DNA of 13,038 bases. It comes from Flavobacteriales bacterium. Its GTDB lineage: Bacteria > Bacteroidota > Bacteroidia > Flavobacteriales_E > Vicingaceae. Position 1 is the first letter of the stretch. Each line of letters begins with the position of its first letter. This document shows, piece by piece, positions 1 to 13,038 of this stretch. Below the pieces are notes generated by a model. The model was not told the DNA's origin. It ran no database searches and saw only the letters and a list, made by a program, of their open reading frames with translations. Both the position numbers and the translations under genes were made by a program. The stretch lies in the NCBI GenBank assembly GCA_002402165.1, contig NVVI01000002.1:27462-40499 (forward strand), in the 5' to 3' direction.

Positions 1-3000
1 ATAAATTCAAGCAATTTATTCACGGATTTCCTGTAGAAGATGGTGTCTTTTATATTCATGCAAAAAATGGATACATTATTTCTGCCAATGGTGAATATTA
101 CCCAATAACTAACTTAAGCTCTACATCTGTTAGTATTTCTCCTGCAAGAGCTATCGAAATAGGAAAAAAATCAATTACTAATTCTAAAGAAAGTTTTAAT
201 GATAAAGTTACTACTCGCCCTATTAAAGTAATTGTGTCAGATAAAAATGGTGCTTATTCTCTTGCGTATAAAACAGATATTTATTCTCAGCACCCGCTAG
301 TGAGAAAGTACATTTATGTTGATGCGTCTACTGGAAAGATTATTAAAGAAAAAAATAGAATCCATAATGCCGATGTTGTTGGTGTTGGAGTTACTAAATA
401 TAGCGGAACAAGAGCAATTACTGCTGACAGCATAGGTGTAGGCTCATACATTCTTAAAGATAATGGACGAAACGTTTATACTAGAGATTTAAACGAAGCA
501 TACTTTTCAGCAAGTGCCGTAGATTTTACTGACACTGATAATATTTGGAACAACATTAACGCACAACAAGATGAAGTTGCATCTGATGCTCATTGGGCTG
601 CTGAAAGTTTCTATGATTATTTTTTAACTACATTCGGCATAAACAGTTATGACAATGCAGGATCTCCTCTCAACACATATGTTCATTATGGTGTAAATTA
701 TGACAATGTTTTTTGGGACGGAACCAGCGTTAGTTGTGGTGATGGAAATGGCACAACTAATAACCCACATACTGCTTTAGATGTAATTTCGCACGAATTT
801 TCTCACGGAATAATCGAAAATACTTCGAACCTTCTTGGTTCGTACGAATCAGGATCACTTTCAGAATCTTATTGTGATATATTTGGAACAGCAATAGAGT
901 TTTATGCTAAACCAGGGTCTGCCAATTATACTTTTGCAGAAAACGTATCTATTACTGGAACTCCTATTAGGAGTTTATCAAACCCTAATACTTATGGCCA
1001 TCCCGACACATATTTAGGAACTAATTGGGCTACTGGCCCTGCTGATAATGGTGGAATTCATACCAATAATGGAGTTCAGAATTTCTGGTTTTACTTACTA
1101 ACCAATGGCGGATCTGGAACAAATGATATTGGAGATTCATACTCTGTTACAGGTATCGGAATGGCAAACGCAGTTAGTATTGCATATAGAACTTTAACAG
1201 TTTATTTAACTTCAAATTCTCAATATACTGATGCCAGAACTTTTTCTATTCAAGCCGCAGTAGATTTATACGGGGCTTGCTCTGCAGAAGCAGTAGCAAC
1301 ACAAGATGCGTGGTATGCTGTTGGAATAGGAACTTCTTCTTCCAACTCGCCAGTTGTAGCTGGGTTTTCTTCTGATGTTCAGTTTTCTTGTTCAGTACCT
1401 ACAACTGTTAATTTTATAGATTTAAGTCAAAATGCTACAATATCTTATAAATGGTATTTTGGTGATGGAGATAGTAGTTCTGTTGCTAATCCTTCTCACC
1501 CTTATAGTGCTGCTGGGGTTTACACAGTAACATTAATTGTAGAAGGCATTGGTTCTTGTGGAACCCAAGCAGATACATTAATTCAAACAAATTATATTAC
1601 AATAACCAATGGAGGAGGCCCTGTTACTGCTAGTTGTTCTCCTATTACTACAGGAGCTGGTACCGTTGGTATGGGAATTTTTAATTTTACATTAAATACC
1701 ATTAACAATTCCACTGCACTAGGGGGGCTTGACAGTTATCAAGATTATTCTTGTTCTCAATCAACAACCCTTACTGAAGGAAATTTTTATAACATTAATA
1801 TTACAACGGGAATAACTTATAATGAAAATGTTATTGTATGGATTGATTTTGATAATGATGGAACTTTTGCTCCTATTGCCGAAAAAGTTTTTGAAAGCAG
1901 TAACATTTTGCAAAACCACTCAGGATCGATTATTATTCCTGCAGGAGCTATATTAAGCACTCCTTTAAGAGTAAGAGTTTCTTCAGATTATTATGCGAAC
2001 ACTGTTGGTCCATGTACAAATTCCCAATACGGACAACATGAAGACTATACTGTTACTATTATCCCTAACACCAACCCTCCAGTAGTTGACTTTGCAGCTG
2101 ACAACGTTGTTGTAAATATAAGTCAAACGGTAAACTTTACAGATTTATCTCAAAATGTTCCTACTTCTTGGAACTGGACTTTTAGTGGAGCAACCCCTTC
2201 GTCATCTGTACAACAAAACCCATCTGTTTCTTATGCAGCAATAGGAACCTATCCAGTTACGTTAGTAGCTTCTAATGCATTTGGTGCTGATTCTTTAACA
2301 AAAACTGCATATATAAGTGTTGTTAATCAGTTTAACATGTGTGTTGGTATTGATTCTACTAACGCAACGTCAGGGTTGTTGTTTGATTCTGGTGGTTCTA
2401 TTGGTAATTACAGTAATAATGAAAATTGTTCTTTTTTAATAAATCCAGGCTGTGCAATTGATGTTACGCTAACATTTAGCTCTATTAATATGGAAAGTTG
2501 CTGTGACCGTATTAGGGTTTATGATGGGATTGATGCAACCGGAACACTGCTGTTGACAGCCACAGGATCGACTATTCCAGGACCTGTTACTGCTTCTTCA
2601 GGTTCCATGTTCATCACTTTTACATCAGATGGTTCGGTAGTTTATTCAGGTTTTGATGCATCTTGGAATTCAACTGTACCAACATCTCCTCCTGTTGCCA
2701 ATTTTTCAATATCCAACAGTAATCCTCCGCTAAATACTGTAGTTAATTTTACTGATTTATCAACAAATTATCCCGGTGCATGGAGTTGGGATTTTGGAGA
2801 TGGGAACTTTTCTTCTTCTCAAAATCCATCACACGCTTATATGGTTCCAGGAACTTATTCAGTTCAACTAATCGCTGATAATTGTTTCGCATTGGATACA
2901 ATATCTTACAACCTTACTGTACAAGATTCTGCATTCATTTCTGTTTCTCCTAACCCATTATTGGCAACAAGTCTTTGTGGAGACTCAATAACAGAACAAA

Positions 3001-6000
3001 TTACTATATATAACTCAGGGAATGGAGATCTTGTCACCTCAATTTCAGGAGCAAGTAGTAATAATGTTAACAGTGATTTTTATGATGGTTTTGAAAGTGG
3101 CACTCTTGCTAATTGGACAATGGAAGCTGGAGCTTATACTAAGCAAATAACATCTTCCAACCCTGGTGCAGGAACATACTCATTAGAATTTATTAATGGA
3201 GCTGGTGCTCATCTCGATGGTATTAGTGCAGCATTCAGTAATGCAACCCCGAATGAAATAAGTTTTAAAGTTAAGAATTCATCAACAACGGAAATTGGGT
3301 CAATGATAGTGATTGGAGACAACCCTGCAACACTCAATGATGGTTTATTTTATATGTATATGAGTAACAATGCCACTTTTTACGTAAACGGGATAGCTAA
3401 CGTTGCTAGTTATTCTGCAAACCAATGGGTAACTCTAGAGTTAAAAAATATTGATTGGACTTCAAAAGTATTTGATTTGTATGTAGATGGCTCATTAATT
3501 ATTTCTTCATTAACATTTCAAAATACAGGGATTTCTCAAATAAATAAAGTTCATCTTTATGCTTGGTCGAGTACAAGCACATGCTCTTTTGATGAGATAA
3601 CAATTGGAGGTGTTCCATCCCCAAGTTGGATAACAACAAGTACTGACACTCTGAACACGGCAATAGGTGATTCTTCAATATTTTTTGTGACACTTTATTC
3701 AGCAGGTTTAAACGCAGGAACTTATTCCTCGAACATTGTACTTACGTCAAACGATCCATTAAGCCCTTTTGATACCATTCCTGTTTCATTTACTGTTATA
3801 GGTGCTCCTGAAATAGGCTTCTCTGCTTCCTGCCTAAACTTTGGGTCTATAATGGAAAACACTACTGCAACCGATTCAGTAACTATCTATAACAATGGGT
3901 GTGATACTCTTTATGTTACAAACATTAGCTCAACATTAGCTGAATACAGTCCAAATGTAACTACCTTAATCATTTTACCTGGAGATTCAGGGAATGTAGT
4001 AGTTACTTTTGCTCCAACTAGCATAGGAAGTTTTAATTCAACTTTAAACATCTTTAATAGTGATGTAGATACAACTATTTGCTTAACCGGATCTGCAACT
4101 GGCGCCCCTATCATATCTGTTAATCCTACATCAATTAATGTAAACTTATTTGCATGTCAAGATTCTGTCACTATTCCTGTTACAGTTTATAATACTGGGC
4201 AAGGTCCATTATATTCTTCCATTAGTGTTAGTAGTTCCTCTTCAGGAAGTGGAGGTGCTTTTTATGATGGTTTTGAAAGTGGAAATTTAAGCACTTGGCT
4301 TTCTGGAGGAGGAAGTTATACAAATATTGTAACAACATCAGCTCCAGCTAATGGTACTTATTCCTTGAGTATGACTGGTGGGGCATCTACCCATTATAAC
4401 GGAATATACCATTCATTTGGTCCTGCTGCAGTAAGCACTTTAAGCTATAAAGTTAAAACTCAAGGTGGTGGCATTACGGGATTAGTTGTTATAGGAGATA
4501 ATAATATTACTAGTGATAATGGAATGGCTATGACTTATTTTAGTGGCAATACCTTTTATTTTTACACCCCTTCCACAGGAAGCATTACTACAACTATAAA
4601 TCCTAACCAATGGTATCAAGTTGAATTTAAAAATATTGATTATAGTGCTAAAACATTCGATTATTATTTTGATGGAGCATTACTTAGTACAAGTGTTCAA
4701 TTTAGAAGCATTACTATAAATAGCCTGTCTAGAATTCATCTTTATGGATGGGACTCTGGACTAACATCATTTTATGATGAAATAACTATTGGGGGAATTC
4801 CAGCTCCTAATTGGATAATTACAAGTACTGATACTCTGAACACAGCAATAAGTGATTCTTCAATATTTTTTGTGACACTTTATTCTGCTGGTTTAAATGG
4901 TGGAACACATTACGCTGATATTACCATTAACTCAAACGACCCAGTAACCCCACAAATAATGATAACATGTACCTTAAATGTTAGCTTCGATCCATGTGCC
5001 GATTTCACCTATAATATTCCTAACATTTGTAGCGGGCAAGTTGATTTTACTGATATAACAACGAACAATCCAACTACTTGGAGTTGGACATTTGGTGATG
5101 GGAGCTCCTCAAGCGCCCAAAATCCATCATACACTTATGCTGGAGCAGGAAGTTACACAGTTGAACTTATTGCTTGTAATGGAACATCTTGTGATACTGT
5201 AAGTTATGTGGTAACCATTTCAAATACAAATGGTCCAATAGCTGCTTTTTGTTCACCAATTACCACTACTGCTGGTACTGTTGGAATGGGAGTTTATAAT
5301 GTTAGTTTTAATTCGATAAATAACACCACAAATGGTGGTACGGACAGCTATCAAGACTATACTTGTGGGGTTTCTACAACAGTAACAGAAGGAAATTCCT
5401 ATGCCATAAACGTTACTACTGGGAGTGGATATGGCGAAGATGTTCGGGTGTGGATTGATTTTGACAATGATGGTCAATTTAACATGACAAATGAATTAGT
5501 ATTTGTATCAGATAATATTTTGCAAAATCATTCAGGTAGCGTAGCAATTCCTACCGGATTGTTAATTGGCACACCTTTAAGAATGAGGGTGATTTCTGAC
5601 TATGAAAGTAACAGCATTACAACTTCTTGTTATACCCCAGCGTATGGACAATGTGAAGATTATACTGTTTTAATTCAATCTAACAACCAGCCACCAATTG
5701 CTAATTTTAGCTATAATATATTAAACCAATGTCAAGGAGTTATTCAGTTTACAGATATATCCACAAATTTCCCTACAAGTTGGTTCTGGAATTTTGATGA
5801 TGGAACCACTTCTACTAACCAAAACCCTTTTCATACATACACATCTGCAGGCTTGTATAATGTGACGCTAACTGCCACTAATTCTTTCGGTTCTGATGTA
5901 TACAATCAGCAAATAATCATAAACTCTTTAAACGCATCTATCGATATATTAAGCACTACCCTCATTAATCAGCCTATTAATTTTAATGCCAATGCGCCAG

Positions 6001-6428
6001 GTGCTATCTCATGGAGTTGGGATTTTGGAGATGGATATCTTGCGAATATACAATCGCCAACACACACATATATCAATGTGGGACAATATGTTGTTACACT
6101 AATTGTAACTAATGGTGCTGGCTGTACTTCTACCGCATATGATACCATCAACATATTTCCAGTATCCATTGATGAGCACGATAGTTACTTTATGATTTTT
6201 CCAAATCCAAATAATGGAACCCTTTATATTGTAAATAAAACAAGTGAAAACATTAGCTCTATAAACATCATTAGTGCTTTAGGTAAACTTGTTTTTAGCT
6301 TTAACAACAATGAAAATTACTTTAATTCTCAAAAAATAGAATTAAACGAAGTTTCTACAGGGGTTTATTTTGTGAAAATTTTATATGAGGATAATAACCT
6401 GATTAGTAGAAAATTTTTAATAAAATAG
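1..6428 (+). CDS. Giant secreted M4 (thermolysin-family) metallopeptidase with PKD/GEVED/CUB/lectin modules and T9SS type A sorting domain, 5'-truncated
   Basis: This is a zinc endopeptidase, predicted to be exported by Sec and then the T9SS to the surface or medium. The frame is open from nt 3, so the true start and signal peptide lie upstream; the GTG at 234 is internal. Residues below count from nt 3. Residues 1-115 are the end of an FTP propeptide (HGFPVEDG...YIISANGEYYP) and a PepSY domain. The catalytic domain has HEFSH (264-268, nt 792-806), the third zinc ligand E288 in SESYCDIFG, and the active-site His in DNGGIH (nt 1059). The thermolysin Arg203 equivalent is kept (IRSLSNP), but the Tyr157 position is Gly. 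Downstream modules (nt, approximate) are PKD 1356-1610, GEVED 1620-2070, PKD 2070-2325, CUB 2326-2675, PKD 2680-2925, Ig-like with inserted lectin-like domain 2926-3800, HYDIN/ASPM-like Ig 3801-4100, a second Ig/lectin 4101-4985, PKD 4986-5230, GEVED 5230-5690, and PKD 5691-5925 and 5926-6157. The T9SS type A domain is 6158-6425 (IFPNPNNGTLYI ... STGVYFVKI). Family and sorting class are secure; the substrate is unknown. Confidence 0.95.
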   Translation, partial: KFKQFIHGFPVEDGVFYIHAKNGYIISANGEYYPITNLSSTSVSISPARAIEIGKKSITNSKESFNDKVTTRPIKVIVSDKNGAYSLAYKTDIYSQHPLVRKYIYVDASTGKIIKEKNRIHNADVVGVGVTKYSGTRAITADSIGVGSYILKDNGRNVYTRDLNEAYFSASAVDFTDTDNIWNNINAQQDEVASDAHWAAESFYDYFLTTFGINSYDNAGSPLNTYVHYGVNYDNVFWDGTSVSCGDGNGTTNNPHTALDVISHEFSHGIIENTSNLLGSYESGSLSESYCDIFGTAIEFYAKPGSANYTFAENVSITGTPIRSLSNPNTYGHPDTYLGTNWATGPADNGGIHTNNGVQNFWFYLLTNGGSGTNDIGDSYSVTGIGMANAVSIAYRTLTVYLTSNSQYTDARTFSIQAAVDLYGACSAEAVATQDAWYAVGIGTSSSNSPVVAGFSSDVQFSCSVPTTVNFIDLSQNATISYKWYFGDGDSSSVANPSHPYSAAGVYTVTLIVEGIGSCGTQADTLIQTNYITITNGGGPVTASCSPITTGAGTVGMGIFNFTLNTINNSTALGGLDSYQDYSCSQSTTLTEGNFYNINITTGITYNENVIVWIDFDNDGTFAPIAEKVFESSNILQNHSGSIIIPAGAILSTPLRVRVSSDYYANTVGPCTNSQYGQHEDYTVTIIPNTNPPVVDFAADNVVVNISQTVNFTDLSQNVPTSWNWTFSGATPSSSVQQNPSVSYAAIGTYPVTLVASNAFGADSLTKTAYISVVNQFNMCVGIDSTNATSGLLFDSGGSIGNYSNNENCSFLINPGCAIDVTLTFSSINMESCCDRIRVYDGIDATGTLLLTATGSTIPGPVTASSGSMFITFTSDGSVVYSGFDASWNSTVPTSPPVANFSISNSNPPLNTVVNFTDLSTNYPGAWSWDFGDGNFSSSQNPSHAYMVPGTYSVQLIADNCFALDTISYNLTVQDSAFISVSPNPLLATSLCGDSITEQITIYNSGNGDLVTSISGASSNNVNSDFYDGFESGTLANWTMEAGAYTKQITSSNPGAGTYSLEFINGAGAHLDGISAAFSNATPNEISFKVKNSSTTEIGSMIVIGDNPATLNDGLFYMYMSNNATFYVNGIANVASYSANQWVTLELKNIDWTSKVFDLYVDGSLIISSLTFQNTGISQINKVHLYAWSSTSTCSFDEITIGGVPSPSWITTSTDTLNTAIGDSSIFFVTLYSAGLNAGTYSSNIVLTSNDPLSPFDTIPVSFTVIGAPEIGFSASCLNFGSIMENTTATDSVTIYNNGCDTLYVTNISSTLAEYSPNVTTLIILPGDSGNVVVTFAPTSIGSFNSTLNIFNSDVDTTICLTGSATGAPIISVNPTSINVNLFACQDSVTIPVTVYNTGQGPLYSSISVSSSSSGSGGAFYDGFESGNLSTWLSGGGSYTNIVTTSAPANGTYSLSMTGGASTHYNGIYHSFGPAAVSTLSYKVKTQGGGITGLVVIGDNNITSDNGMAMTYFSGNTFYFYTPSTGSITTTINPNQWYQVEFKNIDYSAKTFDYYFDGALLSTSVQFRSITINSLSRIHLYGWDSGLTSFYDEITIGGIPAPNWIITSTDTLNTAISDSSIFFVTLYSAGLNGGTHYADITINSNDPVTPQIMITCTLNVSFDPCADFTYNIPNICSGQVDFTDITTNNPTTWSWTFGDGSSSSAQNPSYTYAGAGSYTVELIACNGTSCDTVSYVVTISNTNGPIAAFCSPITTTAGTVGMGVYNVSFNSINNTTNGGTDSYQDYTCGVSTTVTEGNSYAINVTTGSGYGEDVRVWIDFDNDGQFNMTNELVFVSDNILQNHSGSVAIPTGLLIGTPLRMRVISDYESNSITTSCYTPAYGQCEDYTVLIQSNNQPPIANFSYNILNQCQGVIQFTDISTNFPTSWFWNFDDGTTSTNQNPFHTYTSAGLYNVTLTATNSFGSDVYNQQIIINSLNASIDILSTTLINQPINFNANAPGAISWSWDFGDGYLANIQSPTHTYINVGQYVVTLIVTNGAGCTSTAYDTINIFPVSIDEHDSYFMIFPNPNNGTLYIVNKTSENISSINIISALGKLVFSFNNNENYFNSQKIELNEVSTGVYFVKILYEDNNLISRKFLIK
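1620..2070 (+). repeat. GEVED domain coding module, copy 1 (copy 2 at 5230-5690)
   Basis: This stretch encodes a GEVED-type extracellular domain: CSPITTGAGTVGMG, DSYQDYSC, then a DxDxDG calcium-type loop (WIDFDNDGTF, nt 1839 onward), NILQNHSGS, and the family's closing motif as YGQHEDYTVTI. Copy 2 at 5230-5690 is clearly similar along its whole length at the protein level (YGQCEDYTVLI at the end). Each copy is sandwiched between PKD domains, which suggests that a PKD-GEVED-PKD block was duplicated within the gene. Confidence 0.85.
3636..3712 (+). repeat. Direct repeat, first copy (partner at 4821-4897)
   Basis: This 77-nt segment matches 4821-4897 with 5 mismatches by hand alignment, including an identical run of about 34 nt. 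It encodes the second half of an Ig-like domain (TSTDTLNTAIGDSSIFFVTL, then YSAGLN) just after the inserted lectin-like domain. The two copies are 1185 nt apart, exactly 395 codons. The rest of the two 395-codon modules is much less similar, so this tract may have been homogenised by gene conversion. Confidence 0.85.
4821..4897 (+). repeat. Direct repeat, second copy (partner at 3636-3712)
   Basis: This is the second copy of the 77-nt near-identical tract, encoding TSTDTLNTAISDSSIFFVTL and then YSAGLN. The upstream ends of the same two modules also share an identical 24-nt stretch encoding FYDGFESG, at 3077-3100 and 4259-4282. Confidence 0.85.
5230..5690 (+). repeat. GEVED domain coding module, copy 2
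   Basis: This stretch encodes CSPITTTAGTVGMG, DSYQDYTC, WIDFDNDGQF (DxDxDG loop near nt 5457), NILQNHSGS and YGQCEDYTVLI. It has the same order and nearly the same spacing as copy 1, about 3.6 kb upstream in the same gene. Confidence 0.85.
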
Positions 6429-6440
6429 TTTTATAGCTAA

Positions 6441-6446
6441 ATGTGA
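6441..6446 (+). promoter_or_regulatory. ATG-TGA mini-ORF overlapping the GTG start of the surface-protein gene
   Basis: The bases ATGTGA contain an ATG directly followed by a stop in its own frame, and the GTG in the middle is the only start that gives the signal peptide. No Shine-Dalgarno sequence precedes it, as is usual in this phylum. This site fixes the gene start at GTG unless the base calls are wrong. Confidence 0.6.
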
Positions 6447-9400
6447 AAAAACACTTTAAACACATAGTAATTATCCTATTACTTTTCGCATCGGGAAGTA
6501 TTAGTGCTTCTCATTTAATGGGTGGAGAAATAACATGGGAATGTATGGGAAACGGAACCTATATTTTTTCCATGAAATTATATAGGGATTGTAATGGATG
6601 GGATGACCCTTCACTTGTTGGCCCTATTAACATGGAAGTTCATAATCATGCAACAATTACTGGCATTTCGATGAACTTAACTGCTCGAAATGATATCTCT
6701 CCTCAATGTACTGGAGGAGGCCCTTCAATAACTTGTGTTGGTGGAGGAAATGGGGCTGTTGAAGAATTTGTTTACAATTCTGCACCAATAACTATATCTG
6801 GAACTCCTCCTGCCCAAGGGTGGGTTTTTACTTATGACAATTTTGCAAGAAACGGAGCTATAACCAATCTAGTTAGTCCTAGCTCTAGGGGGTTTACATT
6901 AAGGGCTAAAATGTTTGCCTATAGTGGCCTAAACACTAGTCCGTGCTTTGATTCATCTCCAAGTTTTTCAACCAAACCATCAACCATTGTTTGTGCTGGA
7001 GTTCCTTTCACTTATAATCAATTGGCTTTTGATAAAGATGGTGACTCTTTAGTCTATTCTTGGGCTCAGCCTTTAGATGATTTTTCTGGAGCATTTACCT
7101 CAACAAATCCTGTTGCAATTCCTTTTTCTGGCACTTACACATTTAACAGCCCTTATCCAAACACCACACATAATGCATCAAATGTTCCTGCAACACTTGA
7201 TGCTAATACTGGAGAAATTAATTTTACATCATTTACTCAAGGAAATTTTGTTAACTGTATAAAAGTATCTTCCTATAAATGCGGGGTACTTGTGGCTGAA
7301 GTTTTTCGTGAAATCCAAGTAATAATTCTTTCTTGTCCAGCAAATGCACCACCGACAACTAACTTTCCATTTTTAGACCCCTCTGGAAACCCTTCTTTTA
7401 ATGACACTGTTATAGCTGGGGAGTTAATAAATTTCAAATATTGTGGTTATGATACTCCTGGCCAACTAATTACAATGACTGTAATTGGTGATCAATTTGG
7501 AACAAACTATGCCAATCCAAATGCAGGATGTCAAAACCCACCTTGTGCAATTTTAGGTCCTCCGCCTCTTCCTTCTATTAGTGGATTTGACTCTGTTTGC
7601 ATATTTTTTCAATGGCAAACTGCTTGTAGTCATTTACAATCTTCTGGAGGATGTGCCGCTACATCAAGTACTTATCAATTTCTTTTTACCATTCAAGATG
7701 ATGCTTGCCCCACAGCTGGACTTAATATCGGAACAGTTTCTATAACTATTATTCCTCCTGAACCAATTGAATCACCAGAAATTCATTGTGTATCGGTTAT
7801 TCCAAATGGGGATGTTATATTAACTTGGGATACCCCCATAGATACTGTTTCAGGGTTTAATGATTATGAAATTTTCCATTCATCCAACCCTACTGGCCCA
7901 TTCACTTCTATAGCTACTATTGGAAATTATAACCAAACCACATATACCCATATTGGTGCTAATGGTAATTCTGCTCCACAATATTATTATATCCAAAGCT
8001 TAGGTTGTGCTGAAGGAACTGCCGCAGCTGTTATTGATACTGCTTCTTCTATCTTTTTAACGGCTACAGCTACTGGCAACATTGCCACATTGAATTGGAA
8101 CCCAATATACAACCCGTTATTATCTTCATCGTCAACATGGTATCGAGTTTATAGAGAACAACCTATAGGTACATGGACGCTTATAGATTCTACTCAATCA
8201 CTAACCTATGTTGATACACTAAACTTATGTGATTCTTTAATTAGCTATAGAGTAGAAATAGACGATAACTTACCCTGTACTTCAATGTCTTCAATTGATA
8301 CTGTCTCTATAAGTGGCGGTGCAGCTAACTTAGCTGATTTTTCATTTATAGGTACTTGTATTGGAGATTCTATATACTTTACTTTTATAAACCTAAGTGG
8401 TAATGTTATTCCCAATTATTACTGGGATTTTGGAGATGGTGATACTAGCAACCTTGTTAATCCAGTTCATTTTTATGGTTCCGCGGGGAATTTTACAGTG
8501 TCTTTAAATGTAAGTACATCCTCTAATTGTCAAGATAGTGTTTCCCAGGTGGTGACTATTAACCCAATACCAACTTTAACAGTTAGCCCAGATACTATTA
8601 TTTGCCAAAATACTGCTGTACAACTAAATGGCACAGGTGGAAATAGTTATTTATGGTCTCCGGGAGGAAGCCTCAATGATGATACTATTAATAATCCTAT
8701 TGCCAATCCCACGAGTACAACTAATTATATATTATTAGTTACTGATACTAATGGTTGTCAAAATACTGATTCTGTTTTAGTAAGCTTATTTACTATTCCA
8801 ATTTTTACAGCTGGAAATGATACTGCAATATGCTTAAATGACAGTGTTCAATTAAATGCGAGTGGTGGATTGACTTATAGCTGGACACCAAATATTTCAC
8901 TTAGTAATGATACCATAGCTAACCCTTGGGCATTCCCTACTGTTACAACAACATACATTGCTACCATCATGGATTCTAACTTGTGCAGTTATGTTGACTC
9001 GGTAACAATAACAATAAATCCATTACCTATTTTAGTTACAACTGATACCGCTATTTGTATAAATGATACTGTTCAAATTTTTGTTTCTGGGGCATCACAA
9101 TACTTGTGGACTCCGTCTTCTACGTTAAATGATTCTACAGTTTTTAATCCTTTAGCATTTCCTCTTACAACTACGACTTACTCAGTCAATGGTATTGATA
9201 CAAATGGGTGTTCTAATACTGAGACACTAACCGTTACCGTTAACCCTCTTCCTATTGTTGATGCAGGACTGGATACCACTGTTTGTAATGGAACTTCTTT
9301 AACTTTAGGAGGAAACCCTACTGGCTCTTTTGGTTCTTCCTATAATTGGTCACCTTCTGCATCATTAAATGATGATACCTTAGCTAACCCTATTGCTACG

Positions 9401-12091
9401 CCAACAATTAATCCAACAGAATATATTGTTACTGTTACAGATACTAATGGGTGTATTAATATGGATAGTGTTCTTATTTCAATTAATCCTTTGCCTGTTA
9501 TTATTACAAATAATGATACCTCAGTTTGTATCGGAACCTGTGCACAATTAAATGCTTCTGGTGCAATTTCTTACTCTTGGTCTCCAGGAAATGAATTATC
9601 TGATTCTACTATTGCTAATCCTGTTGCTTGTTTATCAAATACAACTACTTTTATAGTTACAGGAACTGACATTAATGGTTGTATTGACACTGCTAGTGTA
9701 ATAATTACTATTAATCCATCACCAATTGTTAACGCTGGAAATGACACAGTAATTTGTGTTGGTACTTCCACTATTCTTGGTGGTGCCCCAACAGGGTCTA
9801 ATGGATCTATTTACAGCTGGACTCCAGCTACTACTCTAAATGACTCTACAATAGCAAATCCAACAGCTACCCCTTTAGCTACAACAACTTATTTCTTAAC
9901 TGTTACTGATACCAATGGTTGTATTGATATGGATACTGTAACAATTACCATTAACCCACTTCCTATTGTTGATGCAGGATTGGATACATCAATATGTATT
10001 GGTGATTCTATACAAGTAAACGCTACTGGTGCGGCTTCTTATCAGTGGACTCCTAATACAACTATAAATAACAATGGTATTTCTAACCCTATTGTTTTTC
10101 CAACTACAACTACAACCTATTTTGTAATAGGAACAGATACTAATGGATGTATAAACATAGACAGTGTTATAATAATAGTTAATATGCTACCTACGATAAT
10201 TATAAACAACGATACTACAGTTTGTGTTGGTACATGTGCTCAATTAATCACATCTGGTGGAATAAGTTATACTTGGTCTCCTGGAAGCAGTTTATCTGAT
10301 TCAATTATTCCGAATCCTATTGCTTGTCCAATAATAGCTACAACTTACATGGTAACTGTAACCGATAGTAATACTTGTGTAGATACCTCTAGTGTTACTA
10401 TTTCGATAAACCCTTTACCAATAATTGATGCTGGACCAGATTTATGGATATGTTCTGGAGATTCTATTCAGCTGAGTGTTACTGGAGGAATAAGCTATTT
10501 ATGGACACCTTTTTTAGGGCTAAATGATACAACTATTTCCAACCCAATGGCAAACCCAACAGATACTGCGATTTATCTCGTTACAGGTACAGATATTAAT
10601 GGTTGTGAATATACAGACACGCTACAAATTATTGTTAACGATGAAGTACCAATAGACCCAGGAATGAATGACACTATTTGTGCTGGAGATTCTATTATGT
10701 TAGGAGGGGTTCCGACATCTCCAAACGGAACATCATTTTTGTGGTTCCCAAATGGGGGAACATTAGACAATGATACTTTGGCTAATCCGATAGCATTTCC
10801 GCTAATAACTACAACTTATTATATTGTTGCTACTAATGATACTTGTACAGCTATTGATTCTATAACAATTACAGTTAACCAACTCCCAAATATTGCCGCT
10901 GGAGGAGATATAGATATTTGTTTTGGTGATTCGGTACAATTAAATGCTTCAGGAGGATTAAATTATATATGGCAGCCTGGAGGTTTATTAAATGACTCTA
11001 CACTTTCTAATCCTATTGGAATTCCAACTGACACAACCCAATTTATAGTCTTTGGGACAGATACAAACGGTTGTTCTGCTTATGATTCAATAGTTGTAAA
11101 TGTTAATCCTCTGCCGATAATTATCGCTTCAAGCTCTTCTCCAAATGTATGTTTAAATGATACCGTTCAGCTAAATGCAAGTGGAGGAATAAGTTATTTA
11201 TGGACTCCCTCTATCGGATTAAGTGATACAACTATAGCCAACCCTTTAGCTTTTCCTATTAACGGAACAACATATATTGTAACAGGCACTGATGCAAACA
11301 TGTGCTCCAATACAGATAGCGTAACCATTAATGTAAACCAATTAAACATTGTAGATTTAACAGACACTGTCATTTGTATTGGTGAAGCACTACAACTTGA
11401 AGTAATAGGCCCTAGCGGATCAAGCTACAATTGGAGTCCTCTAACTGACTTATCAAATCCAAATATATATAATCCAATAACAACAACTCAAGTAACTATT
11501 CTTTACCTAGTAACTGTTACAGACACAAATGGATGTGCTGACACAACCTCTATTTTAGTGACTGCTGAACCAAAACCAATTTCAGATTTCACAATAGATG
11601 CAACTCCATCTTGCGATGGAATACTAGTTGAATTTACAAATCTTAGCACTGGTGCAGTCTCTTATTTATGGAATTTTAATGATGGGGCTCAATCTGATGA
11701 AATACACCCTATTCATCTTTTTCAATACACCTTTTCAACAACTGTTATTCTAACCTCTTATAGTCAAGGTTTATGTATTGACACTATAAGTTATCCTATT
11801 ACCTCTGGAAAATTTGAAGATTATTTTAATCTTACACCTCCTACTATTTTAACTCCAAATAATGATGGAATAAATGATGTTTTCCGATTAGACCTCCCTG
11901 AGGAAATAAGTGAATGTACGAGCATTCTAGTCTTCAATCGTTGGGGGAAAAAAGTTTATGATTCTAAAAATCATAGTAATGGCTGGAACGGCAGAACAAC
12001 ATTAGGTAAAATGGTGCCTGATGGTACTTATTTTTATATCATAGATATTAATGGAATAACTAAAAAAGGATCAATTACTCTAATGAAATAA
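6443..12091 (+). CDS. Giant repeat-rich surface protein (adhesin-like) with T9SS type B / gliding-motility C-terminal domain
   Basis: This 1882-residue protein is predicted to be cell-surface and T9SS-exported, probably an adhesin or stalk; that role is inferred from architecture only. The start is GTG at 6443: it gives a good signal peptide (MKKHFK, then a hydrophobic core, cleavage near residues 21-22), and the ATG two bases upstream hits TGA at once. Residues 23-300 are the N-terminal domain typical of large Bacteroidota surface proteins (SHLMGGEITWEC, YRDCNG, DKDGDSLVYSW). Residues 300-440 are a Cys-rich domain with no clear family. FN3-like domains lie at nt 7765-8010 and 8040-8290, and a PKD domain (YYWDFGDG) at 8320-8563. 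Thirteen Ig-like units occupy 8564-11569, and a PKD-like domain (YLWNFNDG) 11570-11815. The C-terminal type B sorting domain is 11816-12088 (TPNNDGINDVF, FNRWGKKVYDS, VPDGTYFYII). The gene lies 14 nt after the M4 gene, which suggests co-transcription. The repeat part resembles SprB-like proteins only in general design, so no gene symbol is given. Confidence 0.93.
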   Translation: MKKHFKHIVIILLLFASGSISASHLMGGEITWECMGNGTYIFSMKLYRDCNGWDDPSLVGPINMEVHNHATITGISMNLTARNDISPQCTGGGPSITCVGGGNGAVEEFVYNSAPITISGTPPAQGWVFTYDNFARNGAITNLVSPSSRGFTLRAKMFAYSGLNTSPCFDSSPSFSTKPSTIVCAGVPFTYNQLAFDKDGDSLVYSWAQPLDDFSGAFTSTNPVAIPFSGTYTFNSPYPNTTHNASNVPATLDANTGEINFTSFTQGNFVNCIKVSSYKCGVLVAEVFREIQVIILSCPANAPPTTNFPFLDPSGNPSFNDTVIAGELINFKYCGYDTPGQLITMTVIGDQFGTNYANPNAGCQNPPCAILGPPPLPSISGFDSVCIFFQWQTACSHLQSSGGCAATSSTYQFLFTIQDDACPTAGLNIGTVSITIIPPEPIESPEIHCVSVIPNGDVILTWDTPIDTVSGFNDYEIFHSSNPTGPFTSIATIGNYNQTTYTHIGANGNSAPQYYYIQSLGCAEGTAAAVIDTASSIFLTATATGNIATLNWNPIYNPLLSSSSTWYRVYREQPIGTWTLIDSTQSLTYVDTLNLCDSLISYRVEIDDNLPCTSMSSIDTVSISGGAANLADFSFIGTCIGDSIYFTFINLSGNVIPNYYWDFGDGDTSNLVNPVHFYGSAGNFTVSLNVSTSSNCQDSVSQVVTINPIPTLTVSPDTIICQNTAVQLNGTGGNSYLWSPGGSLNDDTINNPIANPTSTTNYILLVTDTNGCQNTDSVLVSLFTIPIFTAGNDTAICLNDSVQLNASGGLTYSWTPNISLSNDTIANPWAFPTVTTTYIATIMDSNLCSYVDSVTITINPLPILVTTDTAICINDTVQIFVSGASQYLWTPSSTLNDSTVFNPLAFPLTTTTYSVNGIDTNGCSNTETLTVTVNPLPIVDAGLDTTVCNGTSLTLGGNPTGSFGSSYNWSPSASLNDDTLANPIATPTINPTEYIVTVTDTNGCINMDSVLISINPLPVIITNNDTSVCIGTCAQLNASGAISYSWSPGNELSDSTIANPVACLSNTTTFIVTGTDINGCIDTASVIITINPSPIVNAGNDTVICVGTSTILGGAPTGSNGSIYSWTPATTLNDSTIANPTATPLATTTYFLTVTDTNGCIDMDTVTITINPLPIVDAGLDTSICIGDSIQVNATGAASYQWTPNTTINNNGISNPIVFPTTTTTYFVIGTDTNGCINIDSVIIIVNMLPTIIINNDTTVCVGTCAQLITSGGISYTWSPGSSLSDSIIPNPIACPIIATTYMVTVTDSNTCVDTSSVTISINPLPIIDAGPDLWICSGDSIQLSVTGGISYLWTPFLGLNDTTISNPMANPTDTAIYLVTGTDINGCEYTDTLQIIVNDEVPIDPGMNDTICAGDSIMLGGVPTSPNGTSFLWFPNGGTLDNDTLANPIAFPLITTTYYIVATNDTCTAIDSITITVNQLPNIAAGGDIDICFGDSVQLNASGGLNYIWQPGGLLNDSTLSNPIGIPTDTTQFIVFGTDTNGCSAYDSIVVNVNPLPIIIASSSSPNVCLNDTVQLNASGGISYLWTPSIGLSDTTIANPLAFPINGTTYIVTGTDANMCSNTDSVTINVNQLNIVDLTDTVICIGEALQLEVIGPSGSSYNWSPLTDLSNPNIYNPITTTQVTILYLVTVTDTNGCADTTSILVTAEPKPISDFTIDATPSCDGILVEFTNLSTGAVSYLWNFNDGAQSDEIHPIHLFQYTFSTTVILTSYSQGLCIDTISYPITSGKFEDYFNLTPPTILTPNNDGINDVFRLDLPEEISECTSILVFNRWGKKVYDSKNHSNGWNGRTTLGKMVPDGTYFYIIDINGITKKGSITLMK
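8564..11569 (+). repeat. Array of 13 tandem Ig-like units (75-81 residues each) inside the type B surface protein
   Basis: The units start at nt 8564, 8795, 9020, 9245, 9488, 9716, 9956, 10184, 10412, 10640, 10880, 11108 and 11339, and the array ends at 11569, covering residues 708-1709. A typical unit begins PLPIxxAGxDTxIC, continues GDSIQLNASGGISYLWTP, then LNDSTIANPxAxP and TTTYxVTGTDTNGC, and ends DSVTITIN. Most units have exactly two cysteines, one near each end, compatible with an intradomain disulfide. Units 4, 6 and 10 are long (80-81 residues) because QLNASGG is replaced by LGGxPTGxxG. Units 5 and 8 have four cysteines. The fold is inferred to be a small Ig-like beta sandwich of the kind common in Bacteroidota surface proteins. 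The repeats are diverged at DNA level, with only local near-identical stretches. Confidence 0.93.
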
Positions 12092-12178: not shown

Positions 12179-13038
12179 ATGGTTAAATCTATGACCGGTT
12201 TTGGAAAAGCAACCGGAGAAGTAAATAATAAAAAAATTACTGTTGAAATTAAATCCCTAAACAGTAAGCAAGCAGACATTTCTGTAAGAATGCCTTCTTT
12301 TTACAAAGAAAAAGAGCTTCCACTTCGATCTATAATTAGTAAAAACTTACAAAGAGGTAAAGTCGAATTCAACCTCTATGCAGAATTACTAGGAGATAGT
12401 TCTAGTCTTCATCTAAATAAAGAACTTTTTAAAAAATATTATGAAGAGTTTAGTTCTGTTGCCAATGATATAGACCCAAAGCACAATACAGACTTAGTAG
12501 CAATTGTTTCTAGAATGCCCGATTTATTAAAAGTCGAAAGAAGTGAATTAGATGAAAAAGAATGGAATAGTGTTTGCAAAATAATTGAAGAAGCTCTTTC
12601 TAATATCAATGAATTTAGAACTACCGAGGGAAGCTCCTTAGAAAAAGAAATTACTTTAAGAGTTGATAATATTTCTAAACTACTTAAGTCTGTTGAACAA
12701 TACGAACAAGAAAGAATTGAAACTGTAAAAACAAGAATTATCAATAATTTAAATGAAGTGATAGACGATTATAAAATTGATAAAGATCGTTTTGAACAAG
12801 AATTAATTTACTACATCGAAAAATACGATATAACTGAAGAAAAAACACGGTTATCTCAACATTGTACTTATTTTAAAGAAACCATGAATTCTTCAATTTC
12901 AGAAGGAAAAAAGCTAGGTTTTATTTGCCAAGAAATGGGTAGAGAGATTAATACATTAGGCTCAAAAGCAAATCATTCTGAACTTCAAAAAGTAGTAGTT
13001 CAAATGAAAGATGAATTAGAAAAAATAAAAGAACAGAT
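12179..13038 (+). CDS. yicC: YicC/YloC-family endoribonuclease, 3' end cut by the window edge
   Basis: 286 complete codons are visible. The start ATG at 12179 gives MVKSMTGFGKA, the usual N-terminus of this family; Met5 is the family's conserved internal Met, so the first ATG is preferred. The YicC N-terminal domain shows VEIKSLNSKQADISVRMP (residues 22-39) and RGKVEFNLY. The C-terminal DUF1732 domain shows FEQELIYYIEKYDITEEKTR (from residue 205, nt 12791) and GKKLGFICQEMGREINTLGS (from residue 243), followed by MKDELEKIKEQ. Family members are about 285-295 residues, so only a few codons are missing. E. coli YicC is described as an endoribonuclease acting on RNA including the small RNA RyhB. 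The protein has no signal peptide and should be cytoplasmic. In many bacteria the next gene is guanylate kinase (gmk), but that would be outside this window. Family assignment is secure; the substrate in this organism is unknown. Confidence 0.95.
   Translation, partial: MVKSMTGFGKATGEVNNKKITVEIKSLNSKQADISVRMPSFYKEKELPLRSIISKNLQRGKVEFNLYAELLGDSSSLHLNKELFKKYYEEFSSVANDIDPKHNTDLVAIVSRMPDLLKVERSELDEKEWNSVCKIIEEALSNINEFRTTEGSSLEKEITLRVDNISKLLKSVEQYEQERIETVKTRIINNLNEVIDDYKIDKDRFEQELIYYIEKYDITEEKTRLSQHCTYFKETMNSSISEGKKLGFICQEMGREINTLGSKANHSELQKVVVQMKDELEKIKEQ

Follow-up and report, generated by a model that had tools for sequence, protein, structure and literature searches.

SprB, the gliding adhesin of Flavobacterium johnsoniae, is a long and repetitive adhesin of the T9SS type B class. 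Among proteins of solved structure, the nearest by sequence to the protein described here is GhpA (grappling hook protein A) of Aureispira sp. CCB-QB1 (PDB 9flp and others), which likewise has related Ig-like units in arrays and carries a type B signal at its C-terminus. In a phmmer comparison with GhpA (E 4e-125), residues 727–1440 were aligned with residues 3016–3772 and residues 1800–1869 with residues 5817–5884. More widely, T9SS type B proteins (CHU_C, TIGR04131) with Ig_7 and PKD repeats share all these domains: the array region is matched by 6718 proteins among 8000 scored candidates, and PF19081 together with PF13585 is found on most of the 120 array-region matches listed. Full-text literature searches gave, among their top-ranked results, no description of Lys/Arg-free repeats in T9SS proteins or adhesins. 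The compositional rule treated here is real and undescribed in the top-ranked results searched; the architecture that carries it is known.

The window, which is the whole stretch of DNA analysed, comprises 13,038 nucleotides of a Flavobacteriales bacterium (contig NVVI01000002.1), and all features given below lie on its plus strand. An ORF with a GTG start (6443..12091) encodes 1882 aa with CHU_C and TIGR04131 matches, and its product is, as predicted from these domains, a T9SS cargo and a type B surface protein of known architecture. The corresponding protein record (P0001), with 1857 aa, is 25 residues shorter than the ORF read from its GTG, so its start is probably M26 and the signal peptide is omitted. 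This probable signal peptide, read off the sequence, covers about residues 1–23 (6443..6511), its end being approximate. The N-terminal domain (SHLMGGEITW..., residues 1–303, 6443..7351) had no Pfam match in a local scan, is conserved with 580 matching proteins, and is matched by several other proteins of the same genome. It is followed by a possible FN3-like region of inferred limits (about residues 440–600, 7760..8242), suggested by a weak match to 3mpc at residues 460–520 (E 0.074), and by a PKD domain matched best at residues 652–705 (8396..8557; PF18911 and PF00801). Thirteen Ig_7-type units (PF19081) then occupy residues 707–1707 (8561..11563), each 75–81 residues long and with two or four Cys. 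A second PKD-like domain, matched by PKD_4 in two stretches, is placed by inference at about residues 1712–1790 (11576..11812), and the CHU_C/TIGR04131 type IX secretion signal ends the protein (residues 1800–1879, 11840..12079). The signal exceeds both curated cut-offs (CHU_C 76.7 bits, cut-off 27; TIGR04131 53.1 bits, cut-off 35), and PF19081 reaches 98.6 bits over the whole protein against a curated cut-off of 27.3; two listed single Ig_7 units fell just under that cut-off in the genome search (26.8 and 26.3 bits). Upstream lies an ORF, open at the window start, for an M4 thermolysin-type protease with PKD, GEVED and CUB domains and a type A T9SS signal (3..6428), and downstream the gene of a YicC-like endoribonuclease (12179..13036). 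T9SS machinery is present in the genome, with one copy of SprA (2560 bits) and 17 PorP/SprF matches above cut-off.

The protein carries a run of 1107 consecutive residues free of Lys and Arg (residues 604–1710, 8252..11572), read from the translation between R603 and K1711 (11573..11575), the latter being followed by Pro. The extent given in the initial annotation is exact, as is its stretch of 1034 residues that also lacks His (residues 677–1710), the sole His of the run being H676 (8468..8470), and each of the thirteen Ig-like units has 0 Lys, 0 Arg and 0 His. The same annotation foresaw one tryptic peptide of about 1100 residues; the peptide would indeed be very long, but its size is 1187 residues (604–1790), because trypsin should not cut K1711 before Pro. 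The claim that the region is acidic also holds, with 78 Asp and 9 Glu for a net charge of −87, Glu being rare in the run as well (0.8%).

Lys and Arg codons are one base away at 538 of the 1107 codons of the run. The log10 probability of 1107 free residues is −55 at the 10.8% K+R of non-array ORFs, a background made of 196 unfiltered ORFs of at least 150 aa from the examined part of the genome, some of them perhaps spurious, and −20 at the 4.0% K+R of the protein's remaining residues. The pooled arrays of this genome hold 63 K/R in 15,407 residues (0.41%), and at this rate 1000 residues free of K/R have a probability of 0.017; K/R-free arrays number 4 of 23, as expected at the pooled array rate (null mean 2.9, P 0.31). 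The run is therefore not exceptional among the arrays of its own genome, and the question becomes one of the array composition of the lineage and not of a single run. A cause at the level of DNA was rejected, since the other five reading frames are full of K/R codons (33, 132, 128, 64 and 110, against 0 in frame). The recent duplication of one K/R-free unit was likewise rejected, because the units have diverged, with a median amino-acid identity between the 13 of 47% (range 30–64%).

That such runs are routine in comparable repeat proteins of related genomes, which the initial annotation named as a ground for refuting its reading, is true in part: they are common in some lineages and unseen in others. 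Of the 23 array proteins identified in this genome, 5 have runs of more than 1000 residues (1999, 1232, 1107, 1071 and 1023), and one more ORF of the same genome (L026) reaches 1014 when masked bases are counted as non-K/R. The run of 1999 belongs to a 2493-aa array protein (G000:C38, L021 6975–14453). For the wider counts, loci of one assembly were merged to give 83 genomes and 151 arrays (per-locus counting gave 86, with little change), and most array counts leave out N105 and N111, which are near-identical records. On this basis, runs of at least 1000 residues occur in 14 of 151 array proteins from 83 genomes, and outside this genome in 9 of 128, in 8 of 82 genomes. Among 119 array-region homologues, namely the best 120 of the 6718 matches minus the window's own record, 39 have runs of at least 1107 and 44 of at least 1000, the longest being 2584. 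In 35 stretches from 29 genomes, hand-picked among the strongest PF19081 matches listed for the phylum, the up to three largest ORFs of each stretch had no run above 526. No run of at least 1000 was present among 119 listed proteins with the N-terminal domain (median run 126, median length 1110), a set that makes a poor control because its proteins are short (3 of 119 reach 1400). What is special is not this one run but the array K/R content of certain lineages. The f1 family accounts for 17 of the genomes, and pooled values below 1% are found also in f43, f46, f47, f48 and f49 (one genome each). Since arrays were picked through homology to K/R-free units and through strong PF19081 matches, this sample does not survey the phylum as a whole.

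Array K+R, computed with masked bases taken out, ranges from 0 to 9.5% over 154 arrays, so the Ig_7 fold does not demand the absence of Lys and Arg. In the HMM-based counts the window's array is taken as residues 638–1790 (15 hits), with PKD parts, K1711 and K1790. Per genome (83 genomes), the median is 1.45%, with at most 0.5% in 24 genomes and at least 3% in 18. Most of the variance in K+R (76%; 28 genomes, 96 arrays) lies between genomes, a share that none of 2000 permutations reached and that is unchanged when this genome is left out. Mixed genomes exist (G218, with arrays of 0.00–1.41% K+R, and G224, with 0.09–2.00%), and a genome of the same genus (G209) has arrays of 1.35 and 2.12%. The number of units has no clear relation to K/R among the 23 arrays of this genome (rho −0.30, p 0.17) and a weak one overall (rho −0.16, p 0.045).

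The correlations between genomes ignore phylogeny. Lys and Arg vary together (rho 0.59, phylogeny-uncorrected), and Asp plus Glu does not follow K+R (rho −0.05, 83 genomes). The net charge of the region is negative, as first annotated, but this acidity comes from the loss of cations and not from a gain of acids. Other residues give rho of 0.20 (Glu), 0.24 (His), 0.12 (Gln), −0.27 (Asn), −0.45 (Gly) and −0.41 (Ile) against array K+R. More Cys is observed in K/R-poor arrays (rho −0.54 per genome). At the 14 columns where tolerant arrays carry the most K/R, poor arrays mostly have Thr, Ser, Val, Ile, Leu, Ala, Asn or Gln, and seldom Asp or Glu. The rest of the protein follows the array, K+R outside and inside being correlated across 69 genomes (rho 0.61); by protein, the mean outside is 2.5% where arrays have at most 0.5% and 5.4% where they have at least 3%. 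Mutation bias was rejected as a cause, since low array K/R accompanies low GC (rho 0.37), the opposite of what such a bias would give, and since L078 (G223), with 66% GC in its examined stretches and 9.7% Arg in neighbouring ORFs, still has arrays of 0.30 and 0.68% K+R. As a side observation, the examined stretches L085 and L103 (G203) have a GC of 0.46, compared with 0.33–0.36 in the other examined members of the same genus as G000, the genome of the window.

The initial annotation argued that drift alone should bring basic residues into such diverged repeats, so that selection against positive charge was likely, and substitutions among close arrays support selection as opposed to drift. Under a one-step codon model applied to eight comparisons, about 393 replacements to K/R were expected and 10 were seen (sum of expectations 392.5). 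Each comparison has 365–473 nonsynonymous differences, with 43.6–58.1 K/R expected and 0–2 seen; the eight share ancestry and are not independent, and one of them sets the array against a paralogue of its own genome. Structural constraint and transition bias do not enter the model, which uses the best local alignment per pair. Glu, to which the same assumptions apply, lies much nearer to its expectation: 8.2–13.1 were expected and 2–12 seen per comparison, with sums of 85.9 and 47. The absence of K/R lies at the protein level, and these comparisons of coding sequences suggest that it is selected.

These figures bear on a further explanation, in which an intrinsic preference of the Ig_7 fold for short polar residues, combined with drift of lineages, would produce the composition. 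Against the ORF background used for composition and genome comparisons, which was filtered to K+R >8%, Glu, His and Met are depleted in the arrays of this genome (ratios 0.20, 0.22 and 0.22), Thr and Cys are enriched in them, and Glu is low even in several arrays that bear K/R. However, the same type of unit holds at least 3% K+R in 18 of 83 genomes, and among near relatives K/R lies about 40 times under the one-step expectation while Glu lies about twofold under, so we consider the fold an unlikely source of the K/R loss as such. Another proposal is that the cell saves on making amino acids for proteins that it loses, and the mean cost per residue is 21.98 in arrays and 24.48 in the background. 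Yet cost is not clearly related to enrichment (rho −0.29, p 0.21), cheap Glu is depleted, and costly Trp and nitrogen-bearing Asn are enriched, which makes such saving a highly improbable cause.

Salt adaptation of the halophile type would be in line with the acidic surface (net −87 in 1107 residues). However, the net charge of neighbouring ORFs (K+R >8% filter) shows no relation to array K+R (66 genomes, rho −0.03). The K/R-free arrays L104, L148 and L129 come from records whose isolate codes are presumably freshwater ones (RE for the Rimov reservoir, ZE for Lake Zurich, and the Kiruna lakes), and the highest K+R values, 9.45 and 9.49% (L133 and L125), bear the same RE and ZE codes. We regard salt as a very improbable driver.

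Resistance to proteases was another cause offered in the initial annotation: Lys and Arg would have been removed as the cut sites of extracellular trypsin-like or gingipain-like enzymes. It fits this proposal that the residues differing from genome to genome are precisely the two after which trypsin cuts, His, Glu and Gln following weakly or not, that K1711, which ends the run, precedes Pro in a bond that trypsin leaves uncut, and that Pro follows residual K/R more often than other residues in arrays with less than 1% K+R (8.8 against 5.6%). But bonds of K/R to Pro are no commoner in poor arrays (31/353 below 1%, 78/1153 at 1–3% and 86/1102 at 3% or more; Fisher p 0.57 for the first class against the last), and their excess over other residues is found in all classes. 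Cleavable K/R also flank the stalk on both sides (R603, and K1790 with ten further ones up to the C-terminus), which would let a protease set it free all the same. Match counts for proteases, made in 64 of the genomes, do not follow K+R in the case of Peptidase_C25 (rho −0.13) and go the wrong way in that of the trypsin family (rho 0.29, p 0.02), of which this genome, 91% complete, has no match at E 0.001. The proposal thus found no support in two weak tests, those of K/R-Pro bonds and of protease match counts, and we regard it as improbable.

The reading preferred here, to which we give a probability of roughly 45%, is lineage-specific selection that keeps long exported stalks free of cationic side chains, with a cause that is probably electrostatic. 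The stalk would consist of the PKD domain and 13 Ig_7 beta-sandwich units, between the N-terminal domain and the C-terminal secretion signal, and the Ig_7 fold would set the base composition, low in Glu, His and Met and high in Thr and Cys. In this lineage, as in some other Bacteroidota, purifying selection would then strip the stalk of Lys and Arg. T9SS surfaces are generally described as anionic, and a chain of a thousand residues would have to traverse the periplasm and the SprA channel before standing on such an outer surface, where one free of cations could avoid sticking to envelope polyanions or to neighbouring chains. We infer charge as the cause because both cations go, their replacements are mostly neutral and the rest of the protein follows; that mutation bias would run the opposite way also favours it. 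His follows K/R weakly (rho 0.24), which counts against an electrostatic cause, as do the mixed genomes G218 and G224 and the array values of G209, and since acids do not rise as cations fall, net charge itself is not clearly the target.

Judged by these sequence comparisons, the exclusion of cations is real, recurs in several lineages and seems marked by selection. A broader rule for exported T9SS stalks in some Bacteroidota lineages, in which the channel or an anionic coat makes cations harmful in long chains, is possible but doubtful. If it is true, whole surface proteins would be cleared of K/R, down to almost none in the arrays, and the cation content of an array would report the surface chemistry of its species.

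The run is also rich in a motif of glycosylation. In Bacteroidota, D-S/T-A/I/L/V/M/T has been given as the O-glycosylation motif (PMC8550257; PMC12871550), and D[ST][AILMTV] occurs 42 times in the run, two to four times per unit, against 9.3 (sd 2.7) in shuffled sequences. If the organism has an O-glycosylation system of this kind, its stalk may be a rod with heavy O-glycosylation. O-glycosylation as the cause of the K/R loss was rejected, since motif density does not follow K+R (rho −0.05). With regard to processing, PorU is reported to cleave the signal in Porphyromonas (PMC4804311). Ig_7 arrays are found in L029, L032 and L037 (G138, G080 and G099), genomes with no Peptidase_C25 match at E 0.001, which perhaps have no PorU-type sortase.

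The consequences are practical as well as biological. Peptides of a thousand residues are hard to see in trypsin-based proteomics, so a part of the surface proteome is likely undercounted in these bacteria. Furthermore, as K/R content varies widely from genome to genome within one domain family, the arrays provide a natural experiment on the demands that a secreted protein faces from export or surface chemistry.

Compared with the described systems, the protein lacks the adjacent sprF-type gene by which SprB-type adhesins are recognized: the downstream gene is YicC-like, and the contig of this gene (C33) has no PorP/SprF match, all 17 lying on other contigs. It differs from GhpA in size, 1882 aa against 5898 aa, so that the giant size of the latter is not matched. 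GhpA has Lys and Arg in the part of the alignment examined, whereas this stalk has none. T9SS type B Ig_7 arrays in general contain 0–9.5% K+R, and this lineage stands at the low end of that range.
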